The position numbers were made by a program, and so were the translations under genes. Shown here piece by piece: positions 4,653-17,955 of a stretch of DNA of 33,660 nt. Where the stretch lies: assembly GCF_002104995.1 (NCBI RefSeq), contig NW_024468354.1, positions 1 to 33,660 of the forward strand, in the 5' to 3' direction. Each line of letters opens with the position of its first letter. Position 1 is the first letter of the stretch. Source of the DNA: Linderina pennispora. Lineage: Eukaryota > Kickxellomycota > Kickxellomycetes > Kickxellales > Kickxellaceae. A model generated the notes under the pieces. That model did not search any database and was not told the origin of the DNA. It saw nothing but the letters and a program-made list of their open reading frames with translations.

Positions 4653-7001
4653 CTAGCGGTCTTGCTGAGTGCGGTAGATGTGGTCGGACACGCGCGCAAC
4701 GTCGACCATCTCGGCCACGTCATGCACGCGCACAATGGCGGCACCGCCCTGGACAGCAGCAGAGACGGTTGCGGCAGTGCCCCAGACGCGGTCCTTGGCG
4801 TTCTCCTTGCCGGTGGCCATGCCAATGAAGCGCTTGCGGGAGCTGCCGACCAGCACCGGGAAGCCAACGAGCTCCACCGGCAGATCCTCTTCAATGAAGC
4901 CCTCGTGAGAGTCAGCCGAGTCGGGCTTGCCGGAGCGGTCGGACACGGGCGCACGAATATGGCGCTTGGTGAGCTCGGGCAACCGCCGCAGCACATCAAA
5001 GTTCTGGCTGCCCTCCTTGGCAAAGCCAATGCCCGGATCCAGGATAATGTTCCAGCGCGCCACGCCGCAGTCCAATGCCTGGCGCACGCGCTGCGCCAGT
5101 TCGAATCGCGTGCCGCGCACCACATCGCCGTCGAACTGCGCATAGTCGTTGAGCTGCGTCATGGTTGACGGCGAGCCGCGCATATGCATCAGCACGTACG
5201 GGCACTGGCGCTTGGCCACCAGCGGCAGCATCTCGGGGTCGTGCGAGCCGCCGGTGACGTCATTGATTATATCAGCGCCCGCGTCCAACGCTGCACGGGC
5301 CACGTCGGCATAGAACGTATCGACGGAGATAGGAACGCCGACCTGCTGCTCGCGCAGCGCACGCACCACCGGCACCACGCGCGCAATCTCTTCGGCAACG
5401 CCGACGGGCACAGCTCCGGGCCGCGTCGACTGGCCGCCGATATCAAGAATGTCGGCGCCGGCCTCCACCAGGCGCTTCGCGTGCTGGACGGCACTGTCGC
5501 AGGCAAGGAAGTCGCCGCCGTCGCTGAAACTGTCGGGAGTGCAGTTGACGATACCCATGGACAGCGTGTGCTTCTGCGTGGCCGGCACCAGCGATTGCAG
5601 GAGCCCTGAGTGCGGCTGCAATGGCGTGACCTGCACGATGTCGTTTGGGGCATTGCTGTGGGTGGTCAGATGGCGGAACAGTGCCCCGGCCGATCTGCCG
5701 AGCTGCTGATGCATGATGCTGCGGTCCAGATCGCACAGTGGGCCGAGCTGGAACCGCCGCTCATGCACCAGTGCATGCGGAAGCGTGAGCCGCTCAGTGC
5801 GCATCACTAGCTCGTCGTAGAACAGAATGTCCAGGTCGATCACGCGCGGTCCGTTGCGGATCACGCTGAAGTCGCGGCCCATCTCGGCCTCGATGCGCTT
5901 GAGCTCGTCCAGCAGCGCCAGCGGCTCGAGCCGGGTCGTGAGCCGGCATGCTGCATTCAGGAACGCCGGCTGGTCGGCCACATACATGGGCGCGGTCTCG
6001 TACAGAAAGCTAGTTTCCACCAGCCGCGACTCGGGCAGAGCCGCCAGGTGCAGCAATGCCTTGTGCAGGTTCGCCAGGCGGTCGCCGACATTCGTGCCCA
6101 GCGCAATGTACGCGCAGTGCATGTCGCCAGGAGCCCGCGGCTCGCTGGCAGCCGCAAAGTCCGAGCTGGCGCGGGTGATCTCGACTGCCGAGCAGGCAGC
6201 AAAGACCAGCGCGCTGGGCTTCTCGACGCGCACGGTGATGCGCGGCACGTGGCACTCCTTGACCCCAGCGCGTGCCACCGCCGTCGCCAGCGCCTCGACG
6301 GTGCGGAACGAGCTCTTCTCCACCAGCTCCGTGATCGCATCCACCACCGTGCGGAAGTTGCGGTACGCCGGCACCGCATCCCGCACCTCAGCCGCCTTGC
6401 GGTAGTGCATGGTCAGGTCCAGATCCACCACCTGCTTGGCGTGCCGCTCCCACAGATTCACGCCGATGATCGTGCTCAGCTGCAGCCGCCGCACTGCAAT
6501 CCGGTCCTCCTGCGCCAGCGCCCCTGCCGCCTGCTCGGCCGCCAGGCGCTCGGCCCCCACGCGGGCCACGCGCTGCCCAAACTCCTGGTCGCTCTCGTCC
6601 GCCGCCTGCACCGGCTCGCTGCCCCAGCTGCCCAGCATCTCCTTGCGCGTGCGGAACACCTCGACGCCTGCGTGCTTGGCGTGCAGGAGGGCCCGCGGCT
6701 TGTTCACTGTCACGTGCACTGCCAGCGCCCGCTCCGTCACCCCCAGGCACGTCCGCACGATGCCATCGGCAAGCGCCTCCAGCGACTGCAGCCTGTGGGC
6801 TCCCTCGGCAAACGCCGTGACCTGCTTGCATGCGTTGCCGTAGTGCACGCTCTCCGTGACCTTGTCTGTGCGGCCCGCAGACGCAATCGACGTGTGAATT
6901 TCAGCCGTAATGAGGACCGGCTGTTTCTTTGTGCGCTCCCACGAGTCGTGCCCCAGCACCGTGCGCACCTCCAGGTCCCGGAATATGATCTTGTCTGCCA
7001 T
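4653..7001 (-). CDS. FOL1: Trifunctional folate synthesis protein (DHNA-HPPK-DHPS)
   Basis: Fol1 carries three successive steps of folate synthesis: dihydroneopterin aldolase, hydroxymethyl-dihydropterin pyrophosphokinase and dihydropteroate synthase. The 782-residue frame is intact and intronless. Two tandem aldolase (FolB) repeats lie at about 1-125 and 168-280; each has its WER glutamate region (HDSWERTKKQ; NLWERHAKQV) and a Lys-Pro motif (VNKPRAL; VEKPSAL). HPPK runs from about 295 to 440, with YIALGTNVGDRL and GPRVIDLDILFYD. DHPS runs from about 475 to 782, with MGIVNCTPDSFSDGGDF at 482, DILDIGGQSTRPGA, DIINDVTGG, the ILDPGIGFAKE loop and VGSSRKRFIG. Thr526 and Pro528 in the STRP loop are the residues found in sulfonamide-sensitive enzymes. 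This domain order is standard in fungi. Confidence 0.97.
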   Translation of the reverse strand: MADKIIFRDLEVRTVLGHDSWERTKKQPVLITAEIHTSIASAGRTDKVTESVHYGNACKQVTAFAEGAHRLQSLEALADGIVRTCLGVTERALAVHVTVNKPRALLHAKHAGVEVFRTRKEMLGSWGSEPVQAADESDQEFGQRVARVGAERLAAEQAAGALAQEDRIAVRRLQLSTIIGVNLWERHAKQVVDLDLTMHYRKAAEVRDAVPAYRNFRTVVDAITELVEKSSFRTVEALATAVARAGVKECHVPRITVRVEKPSALVFAACSAVEITRASSDFAAASEPRAPGDMHCAYIALGTNVGDRLANLHKALLHLAALPESRLVETSFLYETAPMYVADQPAFLNAACRLTTRLEPLALLDELKRIEAEMGRDFSVIRNGPRVIDLDILFYDELVMRTERLTLPHALVHERRFQLGPLCDLDRSIMHQQLGRSAGALFRHLTTHSNAPNDIVQVTPLQPHSGLLQSLVPATQKHTLSMGIVNCTPDSFSDGGDFLACDSAVQHAKRLVEAGADILDIGGQSTRPGAVPVGVAEEIARVVPVVRALREQQVGVPISVDTFYADVARAALDAGADIINDVTGGSHDPEMLPLVAKRQCPYVLMHMRGSPSTMTQLNDYAQFDGDVVRGTRFELAQRVRQALDCGVARWNIILDPGIGFAKEGSQNFDVLRRLPELTKRHIRAPVSDRSGKPDSADSHEGFIEEDLPVELVGFPVLVGSSRKRFIGMATGKENAKDRVWGTAATVSAAVQGGAAIVRVHDVAEMVDVARVSDHIYRTQQDR

Positions 7002-7612
7002 CCTTTCTGTGTCTTTGGTAAAATACTAGCTGAGGAAAAAATTTTAGTTTGGGAGAGGTTAGAGACTCCGATCCAGCCGAGCCCAGACTGGCTTTTAAAA
7101 CTCGCGCGCGGCCCGAAACGAGGAAATTTGCTGGTGACGGAAGATAACAAATTCCCACCCAACCACTGCTGGTATCATGCGGTGTTCCCAATTGTTTGCT
7201 CAACCGCTTGCCAATCCCGTCCCTCCCTAAACCCTCCCACCACCCGTCTCCACGCTACATTGTCGGCGGATCCCAGTCCCACGTATACAATATGCCGCTC
7301 CAGTCGCATCAGCCACGTTTCCTGTGGAATGACAAGTGACCTTGGCCGATGAATCGTGCAATTGCTGTGACCATGTTTACCCATCTGCTGCATACATAGG
7401 CGTGTTCCTTGTGGATACCTGCAATGTATTTTAATTACAGTACTTTTGAAATACATTAGCTGATGACCTGTTACTGCCAGCGTTCCATGCATCCAGAGTG
7501 CGACACAGTAAACACCGCTAGCTGTCTGCCAATGCCGCTACACCATGCCAAACTCTGACTGCAGCAGCCTGCTTGCACCTGCCTCCACGCTCCGGATATA
7601 TATCACACAGCA
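7002..7612. other. Intergenic region between divergent FOL1 and a secreted-protein gene
   Basis: These 611 bases must hold the FOL1 promoter (right after 7001) and that of the gene at 7613. A TATA-like run TATATAT lies at 7597-7603, only about 10 bases before ATG 7613. No conserved frame, repeat or RNA gene was recognised. Confidence 0.5.
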
Positions 7613-9382: not shown

Positions 9383-9943
9383 ATGCCTCAACCAATCCTA
9401 CACACATTTCTGCCTCAGAACAGACGCGGAGACACATTTGCTGCTAATTATTTTTGCCTAATGGAGTTTTCTCAATCCACTGCGATGCGCGGTATTTTTG
9501 GTTCCCCAGTGCCTATTCTTGCTCCGAACATTCCTGATGCCCCTCACCGGTGTTCCTCACAGCGGCTCACCAAGCCTGCTCCACACCTCAGTGGATAGAG
9601 GGCAGAAGGACCTGCCACCATGCGCACTGACTGCAGCAGACGGTGTCTTGGCATATTATCATGGAACGTCGGTGCATGCCAGCTGCCTACATTTATCTGA
9701 CACCACATATTGCATGAACTATGAGGAAAGGCTGCCAGTAGATGCTGCCAGTTGATGTTGCCATTAAGTTCTGCCTGCAGTGGTCCAGACGTATATAAAT
9801 CTCTCGACACCAGCCGTCCATTTCTACAGAATCTACCAACATACACAATCCTAATCTGGGCACAGCCGCTCCAATATTCTCTGCTGTTCTCTACCACCTC
9901 TCCAGTTCTGCCTACCAGCACCTTCAACTAGCTACCACCTAAT
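9383..9943. other. Intergenic region, promoter of the first secreted-family gene
   Basis: It contains a TATA box (TATATAAA at 9792-9799) and a long C/T/A-rich leader to ATG 9944. Nothing else was recognised in its 561 bases. Confidence 0.5.
9792..9799 (+). promoter_or_regulatory. TATA box of the 9944 gene
   Basis: TATATAAA, 145 bases before the start codon, followed by an ATG-free, pyrimidine- and A-rich leader. Confidence 0.6.
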
Positions 9944-10456
9944 ATGGTCAAGGTTTACTTCGTCTCTGCTGTGCTTGCCGTGGTTGCCCTGAATACATCC
10001 GCCAACGCCGCTCCACTTGGTAGCACTGACGCCGATGCATCTGCTACAATCTTCTCTCGTCCGCCAGTCGCTCACCCCTGGGGATTCAACGCCGATGTCT
10101 TTGGTCATCTGCCAAATGGTGTGAAGCACGTTCTCTTGGCCAGGTATGGCATTATCCGTCGTGATGACGATGGGAACATCACCGGAAACGACGATGACCA
10201 TGCCAATGGCAGCGATGATTATGATGCAAAACCCGCCCTATCAACTCAGCCTGAGCCAGTCCTAGTAGCTCCTGCCGCTATCCACCGTTGCCCGCATCCC
10301 AAAGGGAATACCAAGGACAACAGTGGTCACAGCAACGTTACAGACGATGAAGATGGCAATATTGAGCACCAGGGCGATGTCAGGGACATTTATGTCAGTG
10401 GGGGTCATGTCAGCGACGGCAATAACGCAGGCAATGATACGGACAGCGGCAACTAG
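9944..10456 (+). CDS. Secreted Asp/Asn-rich protein, divergent member of a tandem family
   Basis: The 170-residue product has a signal peptide (VYFVSAVLAVVALNTSANA, cleavage near 23). It then carries PPVAHPWGFNADVF, which aligns with YPPIFYPWGFMADASY of the gene at 11384, the basis for placing it in the same family. After that it diverges: the KTKSD, ACAQYTPEP and CSGxYxAxYSDS blocks of its sisters are missing. Instead it has Asp/Asn/Gly-rich low-complexity stretches (DDDGNITGNDDDHANGSDD and GNNAGNDTDSGN) with several Asn-x-Ser/Thr sites. It may be a truncated or fast-evolving copy. Function is unknown; a wall or extracellular, possibly cation-binding, role is only a guess from composition. 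Confidence 0.75.
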   Translation: MVKVYFVSAVLAVVALNTSANAAPLGSTDADASATIFSRPPVAHPWGFNADVFGHLPNGVKHVLLARYGIIRRDDDGNITGNDDDHANGSDDYDAKPALSTQPEPVLVAPAAIHRCPHPKGNTKDNSGHSNVTDDEDGNIEHQGDVRDIYVSGGHVSDGNNAGNDTDSGN

Positions 10457-10672
10457 GTTGGCAAGTCTGGGTTTGGCCATGTCCAGTTCACCAGCTCTTC
10501 GATATAGCTGGTTCACTTTTTGATTTTGTGTGATTTCAAAATGCGAATCTCGTTAAATGTTGGCACGGAAGCTGCCTGGACGCATTACCATCACTCCTGC
10601 TATTGTCTACAGCCCAACCAGCACTGCTAACGAGGCTGACAGGGTCGTCTGCTCATTATTGCAACTGTTGAA

Positions 10673-11105
10673 AGAAGCCCGTGGAATCTGCTAGCGACAG
10701 ACATCATCCCTACCTGATGCAGACCACCAAACATCACTCTCACCTTCGATCCTGGTATAGCAGTGAGCTGGTATCTGTGCTGCGGTTGAGATAGGCTGAG
10801 ACTGTTCCCGGTACCTTCCCGATCCCTATCCCTACACATACTTCTCCGATTACCCTGGAGCCATTGACTACACAACTACAGCTTCCTTGGGTCGGTATGT
10901 CGTGACAACGTTCACGCCTACATATTCTGCCGACACATGCAGTGGTATCTACAATGCCAAGTACAGTGACAGTGCAAGCCAGCGTGCTACTACAGCGACG
11001 TATCAGAGCGTGAATCCGATTCCCCTCATTGATGTTTCGTATACTGCTTTAAACGACTACATGCCTTGTCCGCAAGCGCTGCCAGACAGCCCGCGAGTTC
11101 CGTAG
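10673..11105 (+). pseudogene. Relic of a secreted-family gene
   Basis: Between two intact family members lies a broken copy. From about 10805, one frame reads DCSRYLPDPYPYTYFSDY, matching ACAQYTPEPYTYTYF of the gene at 12853. It then gives RYVVTTFTPTYSADTCSGIY and NAKYSDSASQ, matching the FTPxFxQxxCSGMYKAEYSDSNSQ block of the others, and ends at TAG 11103-11105. An in-frame TGA lies just before the DCSRY block, where the sisters have Gly, and upstream only scraps remain (a PRGI-like echo of PWGF near 10680). No signal peptide or usable start was seen. The left boundary is approximate. Confidence 0.75.
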
Positions 11106-11259
11106 ACAGAGGCGGAAATTGCTGCTCGGGCAGCGAAGATACGAGGCGGACTTTGTATTCCCGCAGCCGAGTTCTTGGCGGCAGCTGACAATCTTTGGTA
11201 GCTATTGCGTAGTGCATGACGCATGCAACCGGAGGGCTGCCGGCATTAGCTGTCACTAG

Positions 11260-11267
11260 TATAAATA
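11260..11267 (+). promoter_or_regulatory. TATA box of the 11384 gene
   Basis: TATAAATA, about 117 bases before the start codon; the leader between is T-rich and contains no ATG frame of note. Confidence 0.55.
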
Positions 11268-11383
11268 TCCTTATGCCTGTGCTGCCATACGCAAACGCAA
11301 CACCAGCCGTTGCTCCGGATACTTTAGCTATTTGGCTTTTCTTCTTGATTCGTTTCTTTAACCACTTTTAGCACTTTTTCACC

Positions 11384-12301
11384 ATGGTTCAGCTGCCACT
11401 TGCTTCTAGTCTGCTCGCTGTGCTTGCTCTGCAGGCTCGTGCCAGTGCTGACAGCAGCTTCCCTACTTCTACCGAGCCTAGTGACATCGGTGTCGAGTTG
11501 TCATCCTCGACTGAGCTCGGCGATATCGGCACCGACGAGTCACCCACTGCCGTGTACTCGTATCCGCCTATCTTCTACCCTTGGGGATTTATGGCAGACG
11601 CCTCATACAACTTTAAGCTGGATCTTGCCAAAACCAAGAGCGACGGCGGAGCTGTAAACTACGGCATCGAGGTCGGTGGAGCGTGTGCTCAGTACACGCC
11701 TGAGCCACGCACTATTACCTACACTCGCTATGAGTTCTCCGAGCCGTACTGGATGGCAAGGAGTGACGATGCTGGCGACGATGACCGCGATAATGATGGC
11801 GGCAATGATGGCAGCAATGATGGCTACGATAGTGATCGTGGCGATCTGGACTCGTACTCAGCGCAAGTATTCACCACAGTATTCACCCCACGCTTCCCGC
11901 AGGTTGGATGCAGTGGCATGTACAAGGCCGAGTACAGCGACAGCAACAGCCAGTATGAGAGCTCTGACGCATATGCAAGCAAGTATCCCGATGAGCTACT
12001 CTTGGAGCCGCTGCTGGCACTCGGCGAGAATGGCTTCCTTGGCTCTCTTGACTACGAGCTAGGCGCTTCAGCAACGGATGCCTTGGACGATATTGACAGC
12101 GACGTCGACTTTGATGAGGTTGATGTTGGTCAGTTCTTCTCAACCCTTGCGGCAGCAGCAGAGGGAGAGGCAACTATTGCCCATGCCAGCGACGATAGCA
12201 ACGATGATGTCAATGGCAATGGCAGCGAAGATTTCGCTGTCGCTGCTGACAACTTCCGTGGCGGCAACGTGGTTGACGATGCAGACACTGACTATGACTG
12301 A
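11384..12301 (+). CDS. Secreted acidic protein, tandem family member with Asp/Asn repeats
   Basis: The 305-residue product has a signal peptide (MVQLPLASSLLAVLALQARA, cleavage near 20-22). The family core follows: YPPIFYPWGFMADASYNFKL, then AKTKSDGGAVNYGIEVGG, then ACAQYTPEPRTITYTRY. An Asp/Asn/Gly run comes next (DDDRDNDGGNDGSNDGYDSD). The second core block is FTPRFPQVGCSGMYKAEYSD, then SNSQY and KYPDELL. Only two conserved cysteines, one per block, suggest a single disulphide. The C-terminal third is extremely acidic and may bind calcium or stay disordered outside the cell. No known domain was recognised. The gene is intact, intronless and TATA-driven, and most similar to its neighbour at 12853. 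Confidence 0.85.
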   Translation: MVQLPLASSLLAVLALQARASADSSFPTSTEPSDIGVELSSSTELGDIGTDESPTAVYSYPPIFYPWGFMADASYNFKLDLAKTKSDGGAVNYGIEVGGACAQYTPEPRTITYTRYEFSEPYWMARSDDAGDDDRDNDGGNDGSNDGYDSDRGDLDSYSAQVFTTVFTPRFPQVGCSGMYKAEYSDSNSQYESSDAYASKYPDELLLEPLLALGENGFLGSLDYELGASATDALDDIDSDVDFDEVDVGQFFSTLAAAAEGEATIAHASDDSNDDVNGNGSEDFAVAADNFRGGNVVDDADTDYD

Positions 12302-12852
12302 GTCTGGCGGCACAGCCTGAACATTATCTTTTATCCTTCTGTAAAAATCCCAAGAACATCGCTAAGCACACATGGTCGGTGTGTGAAATGTGTGCATGTG
12401 GCATTGGAATATTCTCAGCTTGGATGTGCTCACATTTGCTCTGGGCAAATGGCTTCTAGAATTCCAACCTAGTTCCGACAGCGCGCGCTGCCAAGACCGA
12501 TAGCCACAAGCTCAGCCAGCAGTCCCCATTCAGCTAGTTAAATAGATACCGACATCCGCTGCACATGTGCTGACAGTGACCTGCGGAAATTCGCATGAGC
12601 TGGTATCCCAAACTGGTTTGTGATACGGAGCGAGGGTCCCATTTTGGAAGAAATCAGCAGGTCGTTTCCGTTTTGCTGTCAACCGAATGTTCTGTGCTGC
12701 GTTGCCAACAACCTGTCCCTACCAGTCTCCCAGTATGATGCCACCAGGACCAGGGGCACTCCTTGCGCCAAGCCATTCGTACAGACTATAAAATGGCTGG
12801 GCTTGCGGTGCGGTTCTTAGCCCATCATCCACTTCAATTACCCGCCAACCCC
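12302..12852. other. Intergenic region with TATA box of the 12853 gene
   Basis: These 551 bases contain TATAAAA at 12787-12793, 60 bases before ATG 12853. The stretch immediately before that ATG is open in frame back to about 12763, but the TATA box lies inside it, so I treat it as promoter and leader. Nothing else was recognised. Confidence 0.55.
12787..12793 (+). promoter_or_regulatory. TATA box that decides the start of the 12853 gene
   Basis: TATAAAA. A start site about 30 bases downstream would place the mRNA end near 12820, excluding an upstream in-frame ATG at 12763 and supporting ATG 12853, which begins a typical signal peptide. Confidence 0.65.
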
Positions 12853-13599
12853 ATGCAAACAATGCTCAAGCTAGGACTCGTCTCTGCTCTTCTCGCCGCA
12901 GTGGTCATCCAAACGCACGCTCAAGAGAGCGCACATGCTGCCATTAGTGATGTAGCTATTGTCGGCGAACTTGGTGAACTTGTCGATATCGTGGAGAATG
13001 ACAACGAAATGTCGCTATCGTCTGGAGTTGATCCCAACGTGTTCAACATGATGAACTATCCATTTGGAATCCTGGAAGATGCCCACTACAAGCTCAACTT
13101 TGAGGTTGTCAAGACCAAGAGCGACGTTGGACCTGCCCGCTACAACGTCAATGTGGATGGCGCGTGTGCACAGTATACACCTGAGCCATATACTTATACA
13201 TATTTCGTCCCTGAAGGTTACACCTCCGGCTCCTATTATATGGGCAGTGGATATCATAGCAACGATGGGGAATCGGATACGCGCTCCTGGATAGCCGTCA
13301 CGGAAACCTACACGCCTCATTATGCGCAAATTGCATGCAGCGGTGCTTACCAGGCAGACTATAGCGACAGCATTAGCCAGTATACTAAGACAGTCGAGTA
13401 CGCAAGCCAATATCCAGATGGAATCTTCCGAGCACCGTTTACTGCATTCGAGGACAACCAACCCCCGGCTTGGTACTCGCGGTATTCACCAGGATACTAT
13501 AGCGATAGATCAAGCAGTGACTACGATATTTCTAAGCCCACGCCAACTGGATATGGGCCGACATCGTCTGCACCAGTGACTCCAACTCCTCCAGTCTAA
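12853..13599 (+). CDS. Secreted Tyr-rich protein, tandem family member
   Basis: From ATG 12853 the product is 248 residues with a signal peptide (MQTMLKLGLVSALLAAVVIQ, cleavage near THA-Q). Core block 1: MMNYPFGILEDAHYKLNFEV, VKTKSDVGPARYNVNVDG, ACAQYTPEPYTYTYF. Core block 2: TETYTPHYAQIACSGAYQAD, YSDSISQYT, YASQYPDGIFRAPF. It lacks the Asp/Asn run of its sister; a Tyr/Ser/Gly loop (GYTSGSYYMGSGYHS) fills that place, and the tail is Ser/Pro/Thr-rich and probably O-glycosylated. Two cysteines align with those of the gene at 11384. The shared pattern PW/FG-x(n)-KTKSD-x(n)-ACAQYTPEP-x(n)-CSGxYxAxYSDS-SQY defines a family I cannot name. Confidence 0.87.
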   Translation: MQTMLKLGLVSALLAAVVIQTHAQESAHAAISDVAIVGELGELVDIVENDNEMSLSSGVDPNVFNMMNYPFGILEDAHYKLNFEVVKTKSDVGPARYNVNVDGACAQYTPEPYTYTYFVPEGYTSGSYYMGSGYHSNDGESDTRSWIAVTETYTPHYAQIACSGAYQADYSDSISQYTKTVEYASQYPDGIFRAPFTAFEDNQPPAWYSRYSPGYYSDRSSSDYDISKPTPTGYGPTSSAPVTPTPPV

Positions 13600-13874: not shown

Positions 13875-14244
13875 GTGTTGCGCGGCCAGCGATTACCACC
13901 ATGATGATGCTATGGAAGTTATTAGGCCAACCAACAATGAGAGCAGCTCTCACGTTGAACTAATAGAGATATCTAGTAGAGGCCAATGACTACTATAATA
14001 ACAGCTTATTACCCTGGGTTCAATGATGAGGTCAGATATTGCCACACACTGGCCATTTTGAAGATGTTGCTGCTGTGCAATATCTGACCTTATCAGTGAA
14101 CCCAGGGTAATAAGCTGTTATTGTAGTGGTCACAGGTCTCCACTATATATCTCCATTGGTTCAGCGCAAGAGCTGCTCTCATTGTCGGTCGGCCTGATAA
14201 CTTCCATGGCGTCATCATGGTGGTCATCACCGGCTGCGCAACAC
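13875..14244. repeat. Large inverted repeat (fold-back/MITE-like hairpin)
   Basis: The left arm 13875-14042 and the right arm 14077-14244 are reverse complements of equal length (168 bases), with a 34-base loop. Aligned by hand, 145 of 168 positions match (about 86%), and some 19 of the 23 differences are transitions. The innermost 60 bases are best kept, including the shared ATAACAGCTTATTACCCTGG. Arms this long with a short loop suit a fold-back element or MITE; an inverted duplication is the alternative. No target-site duplication was identified. It lies about 300 bases upstream of the Fanzor coding region and may or may not belong to the same element. Confidence 0.93.
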
Positions 14245-14546
14245 CCTTAGGATATTCATTCATGAGCACCTATTGAATAAGGCCATATAGCTCTTCTAGC
14301 CGTCATGCAATATTTGTGGATTTATTATATAAATTAATTTGTCTTATGAATATGCGTAAGCAGTAGCATTTAGCCCACAATGGATACAGTCTGTATAGAG
14401 CCATCAGCATTGGTACAGTCTCTCAAATTAGCCTACGAACGATGCAATCCAGTTAATTTTTAATAAAAAGTTCTTAATGCTATGCATACGCAATAAAGCA
14501 AAACTGAACGGCATCATTTCTCTTCTTTGCCTATTGAATTTCTCAA
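14245..14546. other. AT-rich leader between the hairpin and the Fanzor gene
   Basis: Clearly richer in A and T than the surrounding genes. A TATA-like stretch (TATATAAATTAA) begins near 14325. No gene was seen; it may hold the promoter or the left end of the Fanzor element. Confidence 0.4.
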
Positions 14547-17023
14547 ATGAATATTACCCGCAGCACTACTGTCATAAAGACATCACTTGGTGGTATTGGC
14601 TTCCGTGATTCTATGTTGCCCCGCCTAGAGCAATCTGTACACAGCGTCAATATTATCAAAGAGCATACATACATGCTTGCACGATGGATATTACTCCATC
14701 AGCTAGCTTACGATGATGCCTTTGACCCTGCAACATTTGTGAAAAAGGGGGTATTTTTTCGTTCTGTTTACTTGCTCATTTACTACAATCTGAAGGCAAA
14801 TATGACCATATCTGCTGAGGGTTTCGTCAACCGGAAGGACAGGTCAGAACTGTCGAGCGCAGATTTCGGTGATGTAGTTGTATACCATATTTATGATTAT
14901 CTATTACATAATGGCGATATCGAGCTACATGATGTACACAACATGAATCAAGTAGCAACATACGTGGATACCGAGCTGATGACAGCATACAAGAACAACA
15001 TTGTGTTGCACTATGGCACTTGCCTACAGCGGATTCTGGCCAAATTGATTGATATTCGCAGCCGCAAAAACACACTGCACAGTACAATGGGCAATGTGTC
15101 CAAGGCTGAGTTCAATAATGCATGTCAAGTGTGTATTTATACACCTGCACAGAAGCTCCGCCAGACAGTTGCCTCTAGGCACCCTGATCTCAGTGTGCTC
15201 ACCCCACCGATGCTTGCAATCTACAACAAGCTGGCACCAGTCCTTAATGCCTATGATGCCAAGCACAGATTCGCCAAAGACAGCCGATACTATGATGCCA
15301 AGGTAAATCCACTTCAGCATCTGCGTGCATACATTCGCCTATGCCAGCTTATCGAGAATGAGCAGCTTGGCAAGTCTCCCCCCCAATGCTTGCCTCTGCG
15401 GACATCATGGATCCCAGGCCATGTGCGCTTAGACAAGCAAATAATCAAGCAGGTGTTTATTTCGAAAACACGCGAGCAGGTTACAGAGATCAACGCAGCA
15501 AAGAGGGCAGCAACAGAGGCAAGGAAAGTAGCAGAAAAGGGCGAAAAATTGGCCAAGAAGGCTGCACGCGAAGCAGCGAAGATGCCATCAGATGAAACAG
15601 AGGCCACTGCAGCAACTGCAGCAGTAGCGGCTGATTCGCTTGCTGCTGCATCGGCGGCAGCAGCAGACACTGTTGCAGCACTTAACAATGCATATGCACC
15701 AGCACCCCCAGTCTGTGCACATGACCTGGTCCAAGGGATCACATAATCTGTGTGGGATGTGTGGGGCCGGGTCGCAGATCTAACATCAAAGCCATTTAAG
15801 GCACATGGTGATAGAGAATTCCATGGAATGGTGACAACAGATGGTGTAGCGATATGCATTTTGTTGCAAGACAAGATATCCAAGGCTGATGCTGCAGTAG
15901 ATGCTGATGCTGTGGGAGGCAATACTATAGCTGACTGTCGTTATATCCACCAGATCCCACAGCCAGAGCTGCAGAATCTGAAAGGCCGCTGTGTATTCAT
16001 CGATCCAGGTCGGGACGATTTACTGTATATGATGCACGAAAATAGCAGCAATGGGAAAGAGGGTGAAAAATGCTCTACCGCTACACACGGCAGCAGCGCA
16101 ATAAGGAGCTCAAGCTGCGCCACTATGACAGGATTTGTCGGGGTACAAAGGATCAAGTCCCAGAAGATGCTGTCCGCAGAGCAGAGGCAGAGCTTTCCAA
16201 GCACTGCTGCCGGACCCTTAGCCCAGCAAAATTCCGTGCCTACGTTGCTGCCCGTGCATCTGTGCGGTGTGTCCTAGCACCGTTTTATGCCAACACGATG
16301 ATAGCGCGAAGGTTACCAGAGCAGCAGCTCACTAAGTCAAACAAGTAGCACCAGAGGCGCTGGAAGGCCCATCCGGGTGTCGGGACCAGTCCTAAGGTGT
16401 ACCCGCTTCACCGCAAGCTGCGCCTTGATTCATTCATGAACCAGGCCCGTGCAGACCACAGGCTTGCCGCAAAACTCCGGAGCAAGTTCGGTCCAGACCC
16501 AGTGCTGATCATGGGCAATTGGAGTGCGCCGATGGCCCGACACCATGCGCCGATTCGTGGCAAGGGATGGCGAGACAATTTCAAGCACCATGGCTTTGAA
16601 GTCTATCTGATTGACGAATTCCGGACATCGTCGGTGTGCCCGTTCTGCTGCGATAAGTCACTGCAGACATTCCGGCATGTTCCCAATCCGCGGCCCTACC
16701 AGAGATCGAAGAACCCAACTGTGAAGTGCCATGGCCTTCTCCGCTGTACAAGCGAGTCATGTAAGCGGGCCATGGCACAATACAGGCGGGCCTATTCGTC
16801 TCGGCTCCTGAACCGCGACCTCGCAGCAGTTCTAAACTTCAGACTCATTTTCTAGTCACTCTGTGATTCAGGCAGTATTCCTGAACGGTTCCGTCGTTCT
16901 ACGGCCATTGCTGCCGATGCTTCTGGCACCACCCCGGCAACAAAGAGGCCGCGCAAAAGGCGTGCAGCAGCAGGCGATTCTGCTGCCAGCAGCAGCGAGC
17001 CAGCGCTGAAGCGCCTATGCTGA
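14547..17023 (+). pseudogene. Fanzor (TnpB-like RNA-guided nuclease) gene, decayed
   Basis: Fanzors are eukaryotic relatives of TnpB and Cas12: RNA-guided DNA nucleases carried by transposons. The first part (14547-15743) is a helical N-terminal region with an Ala/Lys-rich stretch near 15490-15690. After the TAA at 15744-15746 the same frame continues through FHGMVTTDGVAICILL to RuvC-I, VFIDPGRDDLLYMMHE, with catalytic Asp at 16002. At 16066-16070 an A run is one short (five A where six keep frame). The next frame gives RYTRQQRNKELKLRHYD, TAG at 16346, PDPVLIMGNWSAP, then RuvC-II VYLIDEFRTSSVCPFC with Glu at 16616, a zinc finger (CPFC ... HGLLRCTSESC), and RuvC-III NRDLAAVLNF with Asp at 16817. 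A TAG at 16853 interrupts it; the frame then runs on (ERFRRS) to a basic tail, TKRPRKRRAAAG, ending at TGA 17021. All three catalytic residues survive, but three stops and one shift mean no full protein. About 825 codons. Confidence 0.92.
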
Positions 17024-17955
17024 GCAGGCCACCAAGGTGGGAGATGTCCATGATCGACATTGCACCAACAACCATCCGACACGTTCAAATGACCGGTTCG
17101 CCGTGATGCTCTTATCGACGTGTCAACCCATGCTGACTAGCAGCCGAGCTCTCATCACGAGCAGAGTAATTCTAGTATGAAAATAGCTTTTGAACCCCAA
17201 TTGAGGAAAGAATGGTTTGTCAGCCTGTTTGAGCCCTATCATGCATATGATTGGTCTTGGACTATGTTGGCACAGGATGATATCAGTGGCCAGTGGCCAG
17301 GGCTTAAACGCAACACCACGTAGATTAATGGCATTACGTATGTTCTATTCTCCATTGAGCGCCACTTGTTGCACAATAAATAGCCTTATGCTTTCAGTAG
17401 TCAGTGAGATCTCTAAAATTCCTGTCACTGCAAAGACAAGCTGTGCTCTGTTGCTGAATGCAGCTACATTCAGACTGCAGCCCTGCGAGGTCTTATGGTC
17501 ATGCATACACGGGCAGGAGCTGAGCCTGAAAGGCACATACGAAAATTCTCCGACTAGCACAGGGCACGCAATTGGCCAGTGGCTGGCCGGTTTAGAAAAC
17601 AACAAAAGCGGTTGGCTAAAAATCAAGCGGCGCTTTGGCCAGCTGACTATGCAATTACTCTGGCTCGCAAGAATCCAGTTGGTCAAACAAAGCCTGCCAC
17701 TTTCAGAAGAAAGAGTGGTTAGGGCTTTCGGACGCTCTCCTCTTTCCTATTCTCCGAGCTCTGTCGTTTTTCAACTTGCTTTTATTTTTTGTACTCTTAG
17801 TGCCTTTACTCTTTTGAAGCATGGGCAGGTAGGTCTTCCTATAAGTGTCTGTCGTCATCGTCCATCGAGATAACGATTGCTATTGGTACAATAGCTGATT
17901 GTCTGGCCGCCCTTTCCCTTACCCTTGTAGCCGCTTATTCTTTTCAGGACTCGCA
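17024..17955. other. Intergenic, possible Fanzor element right flank and PAN5 leader
   Basis: No convincing gene lies in these 932 bases; a frame of about 218 codons at 17217-17873 shows no protein-like pattern. A T-rich stretch near 17760-17815 precedes a possible 5'-leader intron at 17829-17947 (CAG-GTAGGT donor, TTTTCAG acceptor), ending nine bases before the PAN5 start. No sequence matching the hairpin arms was found here, so no right element end can be placed. Confidence 0.45.

Follow-up and report, generated by a model that had tools for sequence, protein, structure and literature searches.

The window, a 33,660-nucleotide stretch of Linderina pennispora DNA, carries at positions 14547 to 17023 a single-exon, decayed gene that on sequence grounds belongs to the Fanzor1 family of RNA-guided nucleases. 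The gene lies within a 5'-truncated Helitron unit, and the features of the locus are as follows:

13875..14042, minus strand: older inverted fragment from the 5' region of this same Helitron, which recurs in a homologous locus lacking the Fanzor gene (L043)
14082..17175, plus strand: 5'-truncated copy of the Fanzor-bearing Helitron unit, shorter at the left than complete copies by ~146 bp
14547..17023, plus strand: Fanzor1 gene, single exon, decayed, with ATG at 14547 and its own end at 17021-17023
16002..16004, plus strand: first RuvC Asp codon, GAT, in IDPG(R)D, a segment aligned with PpFz1 and SpuFz1
16616..16618, plus strand: RuvC Glu codon, GAA, in IDEFRTSS (DEF), a segment aligned with PpFz1 and SpuFz1
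16637..16762, plus strand: C4 zinc ribbon, CPFC ... CTSESC, with cysteines at 16637, 16646, 16745, and 16760
16817..16819, plus strand: third RuvC residue, Asp codon GAC, in NRD, a segment aligned with PpFz1 and SpuFz1
17067..17141, plus strand: constrained noncoding block of low nucleotide diversity, a candidate omega-RNA scaffold
17148..17162, plus strand: Helitron 3' hairpin, with two mismatches here and GCTCGC-ATC-GCGAGC in most fetched copies
17172..17175, plus strand: Helitron 3' terminus CTAG, where homology stops both here and in the 20 fetched copies
17176..17177, plus strand: host TA of the A^TA target, seen in 65 of the 66 different right flanks sampled and in empty sites

The reading frame that opens at 14547 is interrupted by an in-frame TAA at 15744, and near 16066-16070 there is a frame change, after which the frame contains stops at 16346 and 16853 ahead of the gene's own end. 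A re-check of the window coordinates confirmed these lesions where the original prediction had placed them, together with its description of a nearly complete but decayed gene, the remains being one long gene with three stops and one frame change. Compared with L027, an uninterrupted copy elsewhere in the genome, each of the three stops is a base change, and the frame change is a single-base event inside an A-run. Single-base indels in the genome assembly may be sequencing errors, because of this A-run and because another copy, L023, has 21 frame-changing gaps relative to the uninterrupted copy, probably reflecting assembly error. A length-variable Gly/Ala/Asp-rich repeat (window ~15883-15931), lying after the TTDG segment and ahead of the first RuvC Asp, is longer in many other copies.

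The pieces of the broken window gene were searched separately. Using phmmer, the 16349-16852 piece matched two different PDB sequences and no others at E<=1, Parasitella Fanzor1 (4.1e-39) and Spizellomyces Fanzor1 (5.3e-24), and L027 aligns with the same proteins (PpFz1, 4.3e-85; SpuFz1, 1.3e-36), in agreement with the predicted Fanzor identity. The Fanzor/TnpB profile check that had been proposed for this identity holds in part: the Pfam TNB and NCBIfam TnpB models matched the 16349-16852 piece, but below their cut-offs, and the test is therefore weak when taken alone. PpFz1 (Parasitella parasitica; PDB 9cf0-9cf3) is the closest solved relative by sequence, and its match to L027 comprises four aligned stretches, the first in the N-terminal half and the last reaching the zinc ribbon. 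Between two of these there are ~101 residues in PpFz1 and 26 in L027, and this length gap may correspond to the RuvC insertion (FRI) domain described for PpFz1 (PMC11423790).

The window gene also fits the published Fanzor1 motif, D-X(125,275)-[TS][TS]-X-X-C4 zinc finger-X(5,50)-RD (PMC3627910), with D at 16002, ~208 codons to TS at 16625, cysteines within 16637-16762, and RD at 16814-16819; the frame change falls within the first spacer. The RuvC D-E-D codons at 16002, 16616, and 16817 are as originally placed and, by our mapping from the motifs, would be the counterparts of SpuFz1 D383, E541, and D606, the RuvC residues named in the literature (PMC10432273, PMC11423790), and the predicted C4-type zinc finger is represented by the four zinc-ribbon cysteines. 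The observation behind the prediction is confirmed and its interpretation supported; what it missed is the vehicle, as the gene is cargo of a high-copy Helitron, the left end of which is absent from the window copy.

One further relative, in Coemansia sp. RSA 2673 (P0001; 30 percent over 95 percent), emerged from protein searches in which scoring was limited to the 7991 candidates with the most words in common; these searches missed the Parasitella and Spizellomyces proteins and are not a census. At its third RuvC residue this relative reads NRN where NRD would be expected, and an Asn is also reported there for GtFz1 (PMC11423790). A DNA search of a phage collection with 14547-16072 gave no match. 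Elsewhere in the window, a trifunctional folate synthesis gene occupies 4653-7025 on the minus strand, with its best named match (76 percent) in Linderina macrospora (Kickxellales), and neighboring ORFs at 9932-13599 encode secreted-looking proteins, two of which (ORFs 11372-12301 and 12739-13599) have a common motif like KSD-G---Y----GACAQYTPEP-T-TY.

The Helitron unit and its target site

To place the window copy among its relatives, the genome (G000; 26.17 Mb in 222 contigs) was searched. A 2 kb probe gave at least 61 matches, with 40 of 239 candidates scored. Probes of 32-34 bases, allowing up to 3 mismatches and with reversed-pattern controls giving 0 each, matched the Helitron 5' end 120 times, the N-terminal ORF of Fanzor1 136 times, the Fanzor1 catalytic core 111 times, the 3' noncoding block 191 times, and the Helitron 3' end 213 times. 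The probes are unequal in sensitivity, and the counts include alleles because the assembly contains diverged duplicate contigs.

We fetched 20 further copies with their flanks and compared them with the window copy. Homology in the window begins at 14082, and 18 of the 20 copies extend ~146 bp further left to a common 5' end; a probe for the 5' terminus finds nothing in the window. The 18 copies with a continuous left end begin TCTTTACC or a close variant, often after TCTTTA repeats, such that complete copies (3.2-3.4 kb) start with TC. The (TCTTTA)n at the left edge might suggest a LINE-like element, but this was rejected because the fetched copies are truncated at the left and have a fixed right end. 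At the right, the order is a hairpin, then 8-9 nt, then CTAG (17 of 21, counting the window copy), CTGG (3 of 21), or CTTG (1 of 21), which is the hairpin before CTRR that is seen in Helitron1. Right flanks beyond CTAG differ among copies, except that those of L011 and L021 are the same. By its ends, the Fanzor-bearing unit is a canonical (Helitron1-type) Helitron.

Related loci were also noted. L043 (G000:C112:355600-357400) is homologous to the window on both sides of the insertion (93-94 percent) and is without the Fanzor gene; it has ~490 bp of other DNA and the same inverted old Helitron 5' fragment as at 13875-14042. A search for the window's own empty site with the joined flanks gave no match spanning the join. 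Another locus, L042 (C166:8250-10760), is an allele-like copy of the same insertion as L012, with an internal deletion, and carries a ~110 bp inverted segment near the position of the window's inverted repeat.

Target preference was read from flanks sampled with patterns that allowed no variation at the ends and called for a purine at one distant position. The right-flank pattern gave 78 matches, one of which was dropped as chance, and the remaining 77 correspond to 66 distinct flanks; the first base is T in all 66 and the second is A in 65, with no comparable fixation further on. The left-flank pattern, which accepts any unit with this 5' end, gave 34 matches and 30 distinct sites after repeats were stripped, the last base being A in 25. 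We also queried 15 joined insertion sites for empty counterparts, scoring 40 of 96 candidates, and found two, GATA^TATT (L040) and CCCA^TATA (L039, which differs by 8 bp near the junction), neither with a duplication; a third homologous site with ~100 bp extra was left out of this count. The TA of the target is host DNA, because both empty sites contain it. A TA target-site duplication of the Mariner type was rejected, as left flanks such as CCA and AAA are without TA and neither empty site has a duplication. Nor do these sites fit the Helitron2 habit of inserting after a T-rich tetranucleotide, given the A at 25 of 30 left flanks and empty sites reading GATA^ and CCCA^.

Helitron1 elements insert between A and T without target duplication, and the elements described here do the same. 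Canonical families such as Helraiser have A^T insertion, TC...CTRR ends, and a RepHel with Helitron_like_N and PIF1 domains, all of which are found here; unlike them, the element here carries or adjoins an RNA-guided nuclease gene, and the base after AT is nearly fixed. This additional A is a property of the Helitron and not of its Fanzor copies, because TA is equally fixed where no nuclease core was detected: of the 77 right ends, with 100 of the 111 cores listed, 34 have a core match 450-700 nt upstream and 43 do not, and TA follows the 3' end in 34 of 34 and 42 of 43, respectively. For the same reason, Fanzor need not be the cause of the A^TA target.

RepHel partners and probable selection on source copies

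Helitron_like_N matches, 13 in total, fall in seven loci, six of which are of the same Helitron family, and at all six the Fanzor unit's 5' end lies 1.7-1.8 kb upstream; as in Helitron1, RepHel is encoded by a partner sharing the 5' end. The seventh locus (G000:C68:198243-198650) has a lower score and lies in a 1989-aa open frame, with no Fanzor-unit 5' end among the matches listed. At C2, pieces of Helitron_like_N, PIF1, and Pif1_2B are spread over several frames of the RepHel unit, which has one or more in-frame stops; a piece of this unit matches Helraiser (7lcc) at 1.2e-142.

RepHel's own 3' end differs from that of the Fanzor unit, the common 3' end belonging to the adjoining Fanzor unit. 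The RepHel 3' end occurs eight times: once at each of the six loci, and also at C1 and C23, which gave no Helitron_like_N match. All eight occurrences directly adjoin a Helitron 5' end and none is solo, and seven of the eight downstream units are Fanzor units; six junctions were read, and the other two, judged by coordinates, have Fanzor matches following them. Five of the six run on into a Fanzor unit, and the sixth (L034, C2:649400-649690) has ~55 bp of the common 5' end followed by different, non-Fanzor sequence.

We considered whether these tandems arose by repeated insertion of Fanzor Helitrons beside RepHel ends, instead of constituting one composite element, a reading that we regard as possible although somewhat short of probable. 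The Fanzor units at three tandems (L019, L027, and L033, the last with ~4 kb from unit to junction unread) have different right flanks, and those in tandem fall into two groups of the copy tree, L019 with L027 (support 88/99) and L033 with the short L037 row (92/94), in a tree where 13 of 20 inner branches are weak. The different downstream unit at C2 points the same way. Against it, a RepHel 3' end was never found solo, and the RepHel-Fanzor join comes after G, whereas at other sites the element follows the A of an A^TA target.

Live-looking relatives elsewhere in the genome had been anticipated, and one of these tandem copies answers to this: L027 has an uninterrupted 861-codon ORF and is the sole such copy among the 20 others fetched. 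L015 is free of stops and shifts as far as it extends, but its start is missing, and 18 of the remaining 19 copies have at least one stop or frame-changing gap in the ORF, some of them perhaps through assembly error. In the 21 aligned copies, two-state variants present in at least three copies have nonsynonymous/synonymous (N/S) counts of 77/75, about half the ratio of singletons (201/102; Fisher p=0.0015); variants in two copies are 49/22, and pooling these with singletons gives p=0.0007. Stop gains and losses were left out of these counts, the noisy L023 was included, and copies were treated regardless of relatedness. Singleton transitions have an N/S of 157/90 (1.74), compared to 1.90 expected without selection. 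Among singleton C>T changes, 82 are at 334 CpG sites and 67 at 580 CpA sites, an excess at CpG that may reflect cytosine methylation.

The halved N/S of the shared variants suggests that Fanzor source genes were probably under purifying selection and that the copies decay after insertion. A contrary interpretation is that Fanzor1 is a passenger captured by the Helitron and multiplied by RepHel without helping, its copies decaying neutrally once inserted. The near-neutral singletons, the lesion or truncation in 19 of the 20 other fetched ORFs, and the excess of 5' (120) and 3' (213) ends over nuclease cores (111) all suit it. Nonetheless, we consider it improbable, as source copies seem to have retained protein function and a Fanzor unit adjoins seven of eight RepHel 3' ends.

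A candidate guide RNA and a proposed shared site

A guide RNA beside the gene had been predicted, probably in AT-rich flanks. The best candidate would instead be the constrained noncoding sequence that separates the ORF stop from the Helitron 3' end (~17067-17175), and the guide would lie in the host flank after 17177, putatively beginning at 17178. Nucleotide diversity across the 75 nt upstream of the hairpin (17067-17141) is 0.027, compared to 0.064 at third codon positions, 0.069 in 5' noncoding sequence, 0.087 just after the ORF stop, and 0.057 in the last 36 nt (L023 left out). No 75-nt window of 5' noncoding sequence is as low, although 17 percent of all windows, coding included, are.

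The constrained block suits an omega-RNA scaffold and also a transposon terminus. That it is only the Helitron 3' terminus, with Fanzor using an RNA made elsewhere or none, is a rather unlikely alternative. A Helitron requires its 3' end; scans of the window for Rfam families (at gathering thresholds) and tRNAs gave no match; and folds of the 3' region are unremarkable, with stabilities relative to shuffles (z of 1.32 in the window, -1.31 in L027) showing no clear extra stability, in a set of 21 copies that vary little in sequence. However, constraint reaches ~75 nt upstream of the hairpin, and the omega-RNAs characterized so far derive from the end of the transposon, the adjoining flank serving as guide (PMC10432273).

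We favor, with moderate confidence, the explanation that the window contains a dead, left-truncated Fanzor1 copy in a canonical Helitron that is mobilized by RepHel and whose insertion splits an ATA target-adjacent motif (TAM). RepHel would mobilize the Fanzor unit, and a transcript of the unit's 3' end and host flank would provide omega-RNA and guide. The TAM would be the ATA of the insertion target, which insertion would split, changing A^TA to G^TA, and the filled site, now GTA, would be protected if the guide starts after the host TA. The nuclease would then cut the corresponding site where it is still empty, on a sister or homologous chromosome, and repair would copy the element in. Several observations weigh against this explanation: the constrained 3' block may be there for nothing but Helitron transposition, its folds are not clearly more stable than shuffles, TA is fixed equally at 3' ends without a detected core, and almost all of the other fetched copies have a damaged or truncated ORF. 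Helitrons are thought to copy rather than excise, so that there may be no empty donor to cut.

Reported TAMs are ATN for PpFz1 (PMC11423790) and CATA for SpuFz1 (PMC10432273), and the A^TA target is compatible with ATN, a TAM measured in another species. The more specific proposal, that the transposase (A^TA) and the Fanzor TAM (ATA) use one site, such that insertion would disarm the site, reprogram the guide, and lead to cutting of empty alleles, is plausible on the agreement of these two motifs, one of them from another species, and we advance it only tentatively, as something we doubt more than we believe.

Fanzor1 genes are already known in Helitrons, of a different group, in Chlamydomonas (Bao and Jurka 2013, PMC3627910). 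In CRe-1, CRe-2, and CRe-3, Fanzor1 is cargo of nonautonomous Helitrons, the ends resemble those of other Helitrons of the genome, and 3' ends exceed 5' ends, as here; the CRe elements are Helitron2, inserted after TTTT and with 5' and 3' hairpins, a multi-exon gene, and variable target-site duplications on many copies (PMC3627910). Unlike them, the elements described here have TC/CTAG ends, an A^TA target, a single exon, a head-to-tail RepHel join, and a fungal host. Relative to the portions of the Fanzor-Helitron literature available to us, which describe no canonical fungal Helitron with a Fanzor and do not extend to a 2023 survey of eukaryotic TnpB relatives, a Fanzor1 in a canonical Helitron, in a fungus, and joined to RepHel is new. 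In IS200/IS605 elements, which encode TnpA and TnpB, the transposase target is also the TAM and the flank becomes the guide. The likeness to the Linderina elements is in proposed logic only, the transposase and termini being different. A parallel between Helitron-associated Fanzors and TnpA/TnpB has been drawn, in a 2023 Nature paper that calls the biological role of Fanzor cleavage unknown (PMC10432273).

In the Linderina genome, numerous closely similar copies occur together with an uninterrupted gene, RepHel partners, and empty alleles, and the target motif agrees with the TAM of the closest characterized relative; the predicted TAM (ATA) and guide position are directly testable, providing a route to what a Fanzor does for its transposon. 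If the shared-site proposal is true, such a Helitron would be a self-reprogramming homing drive, and the ~80 matches to the RNA block in excess of those to the nuclease core (191 versus 111) would be guide-only partners.
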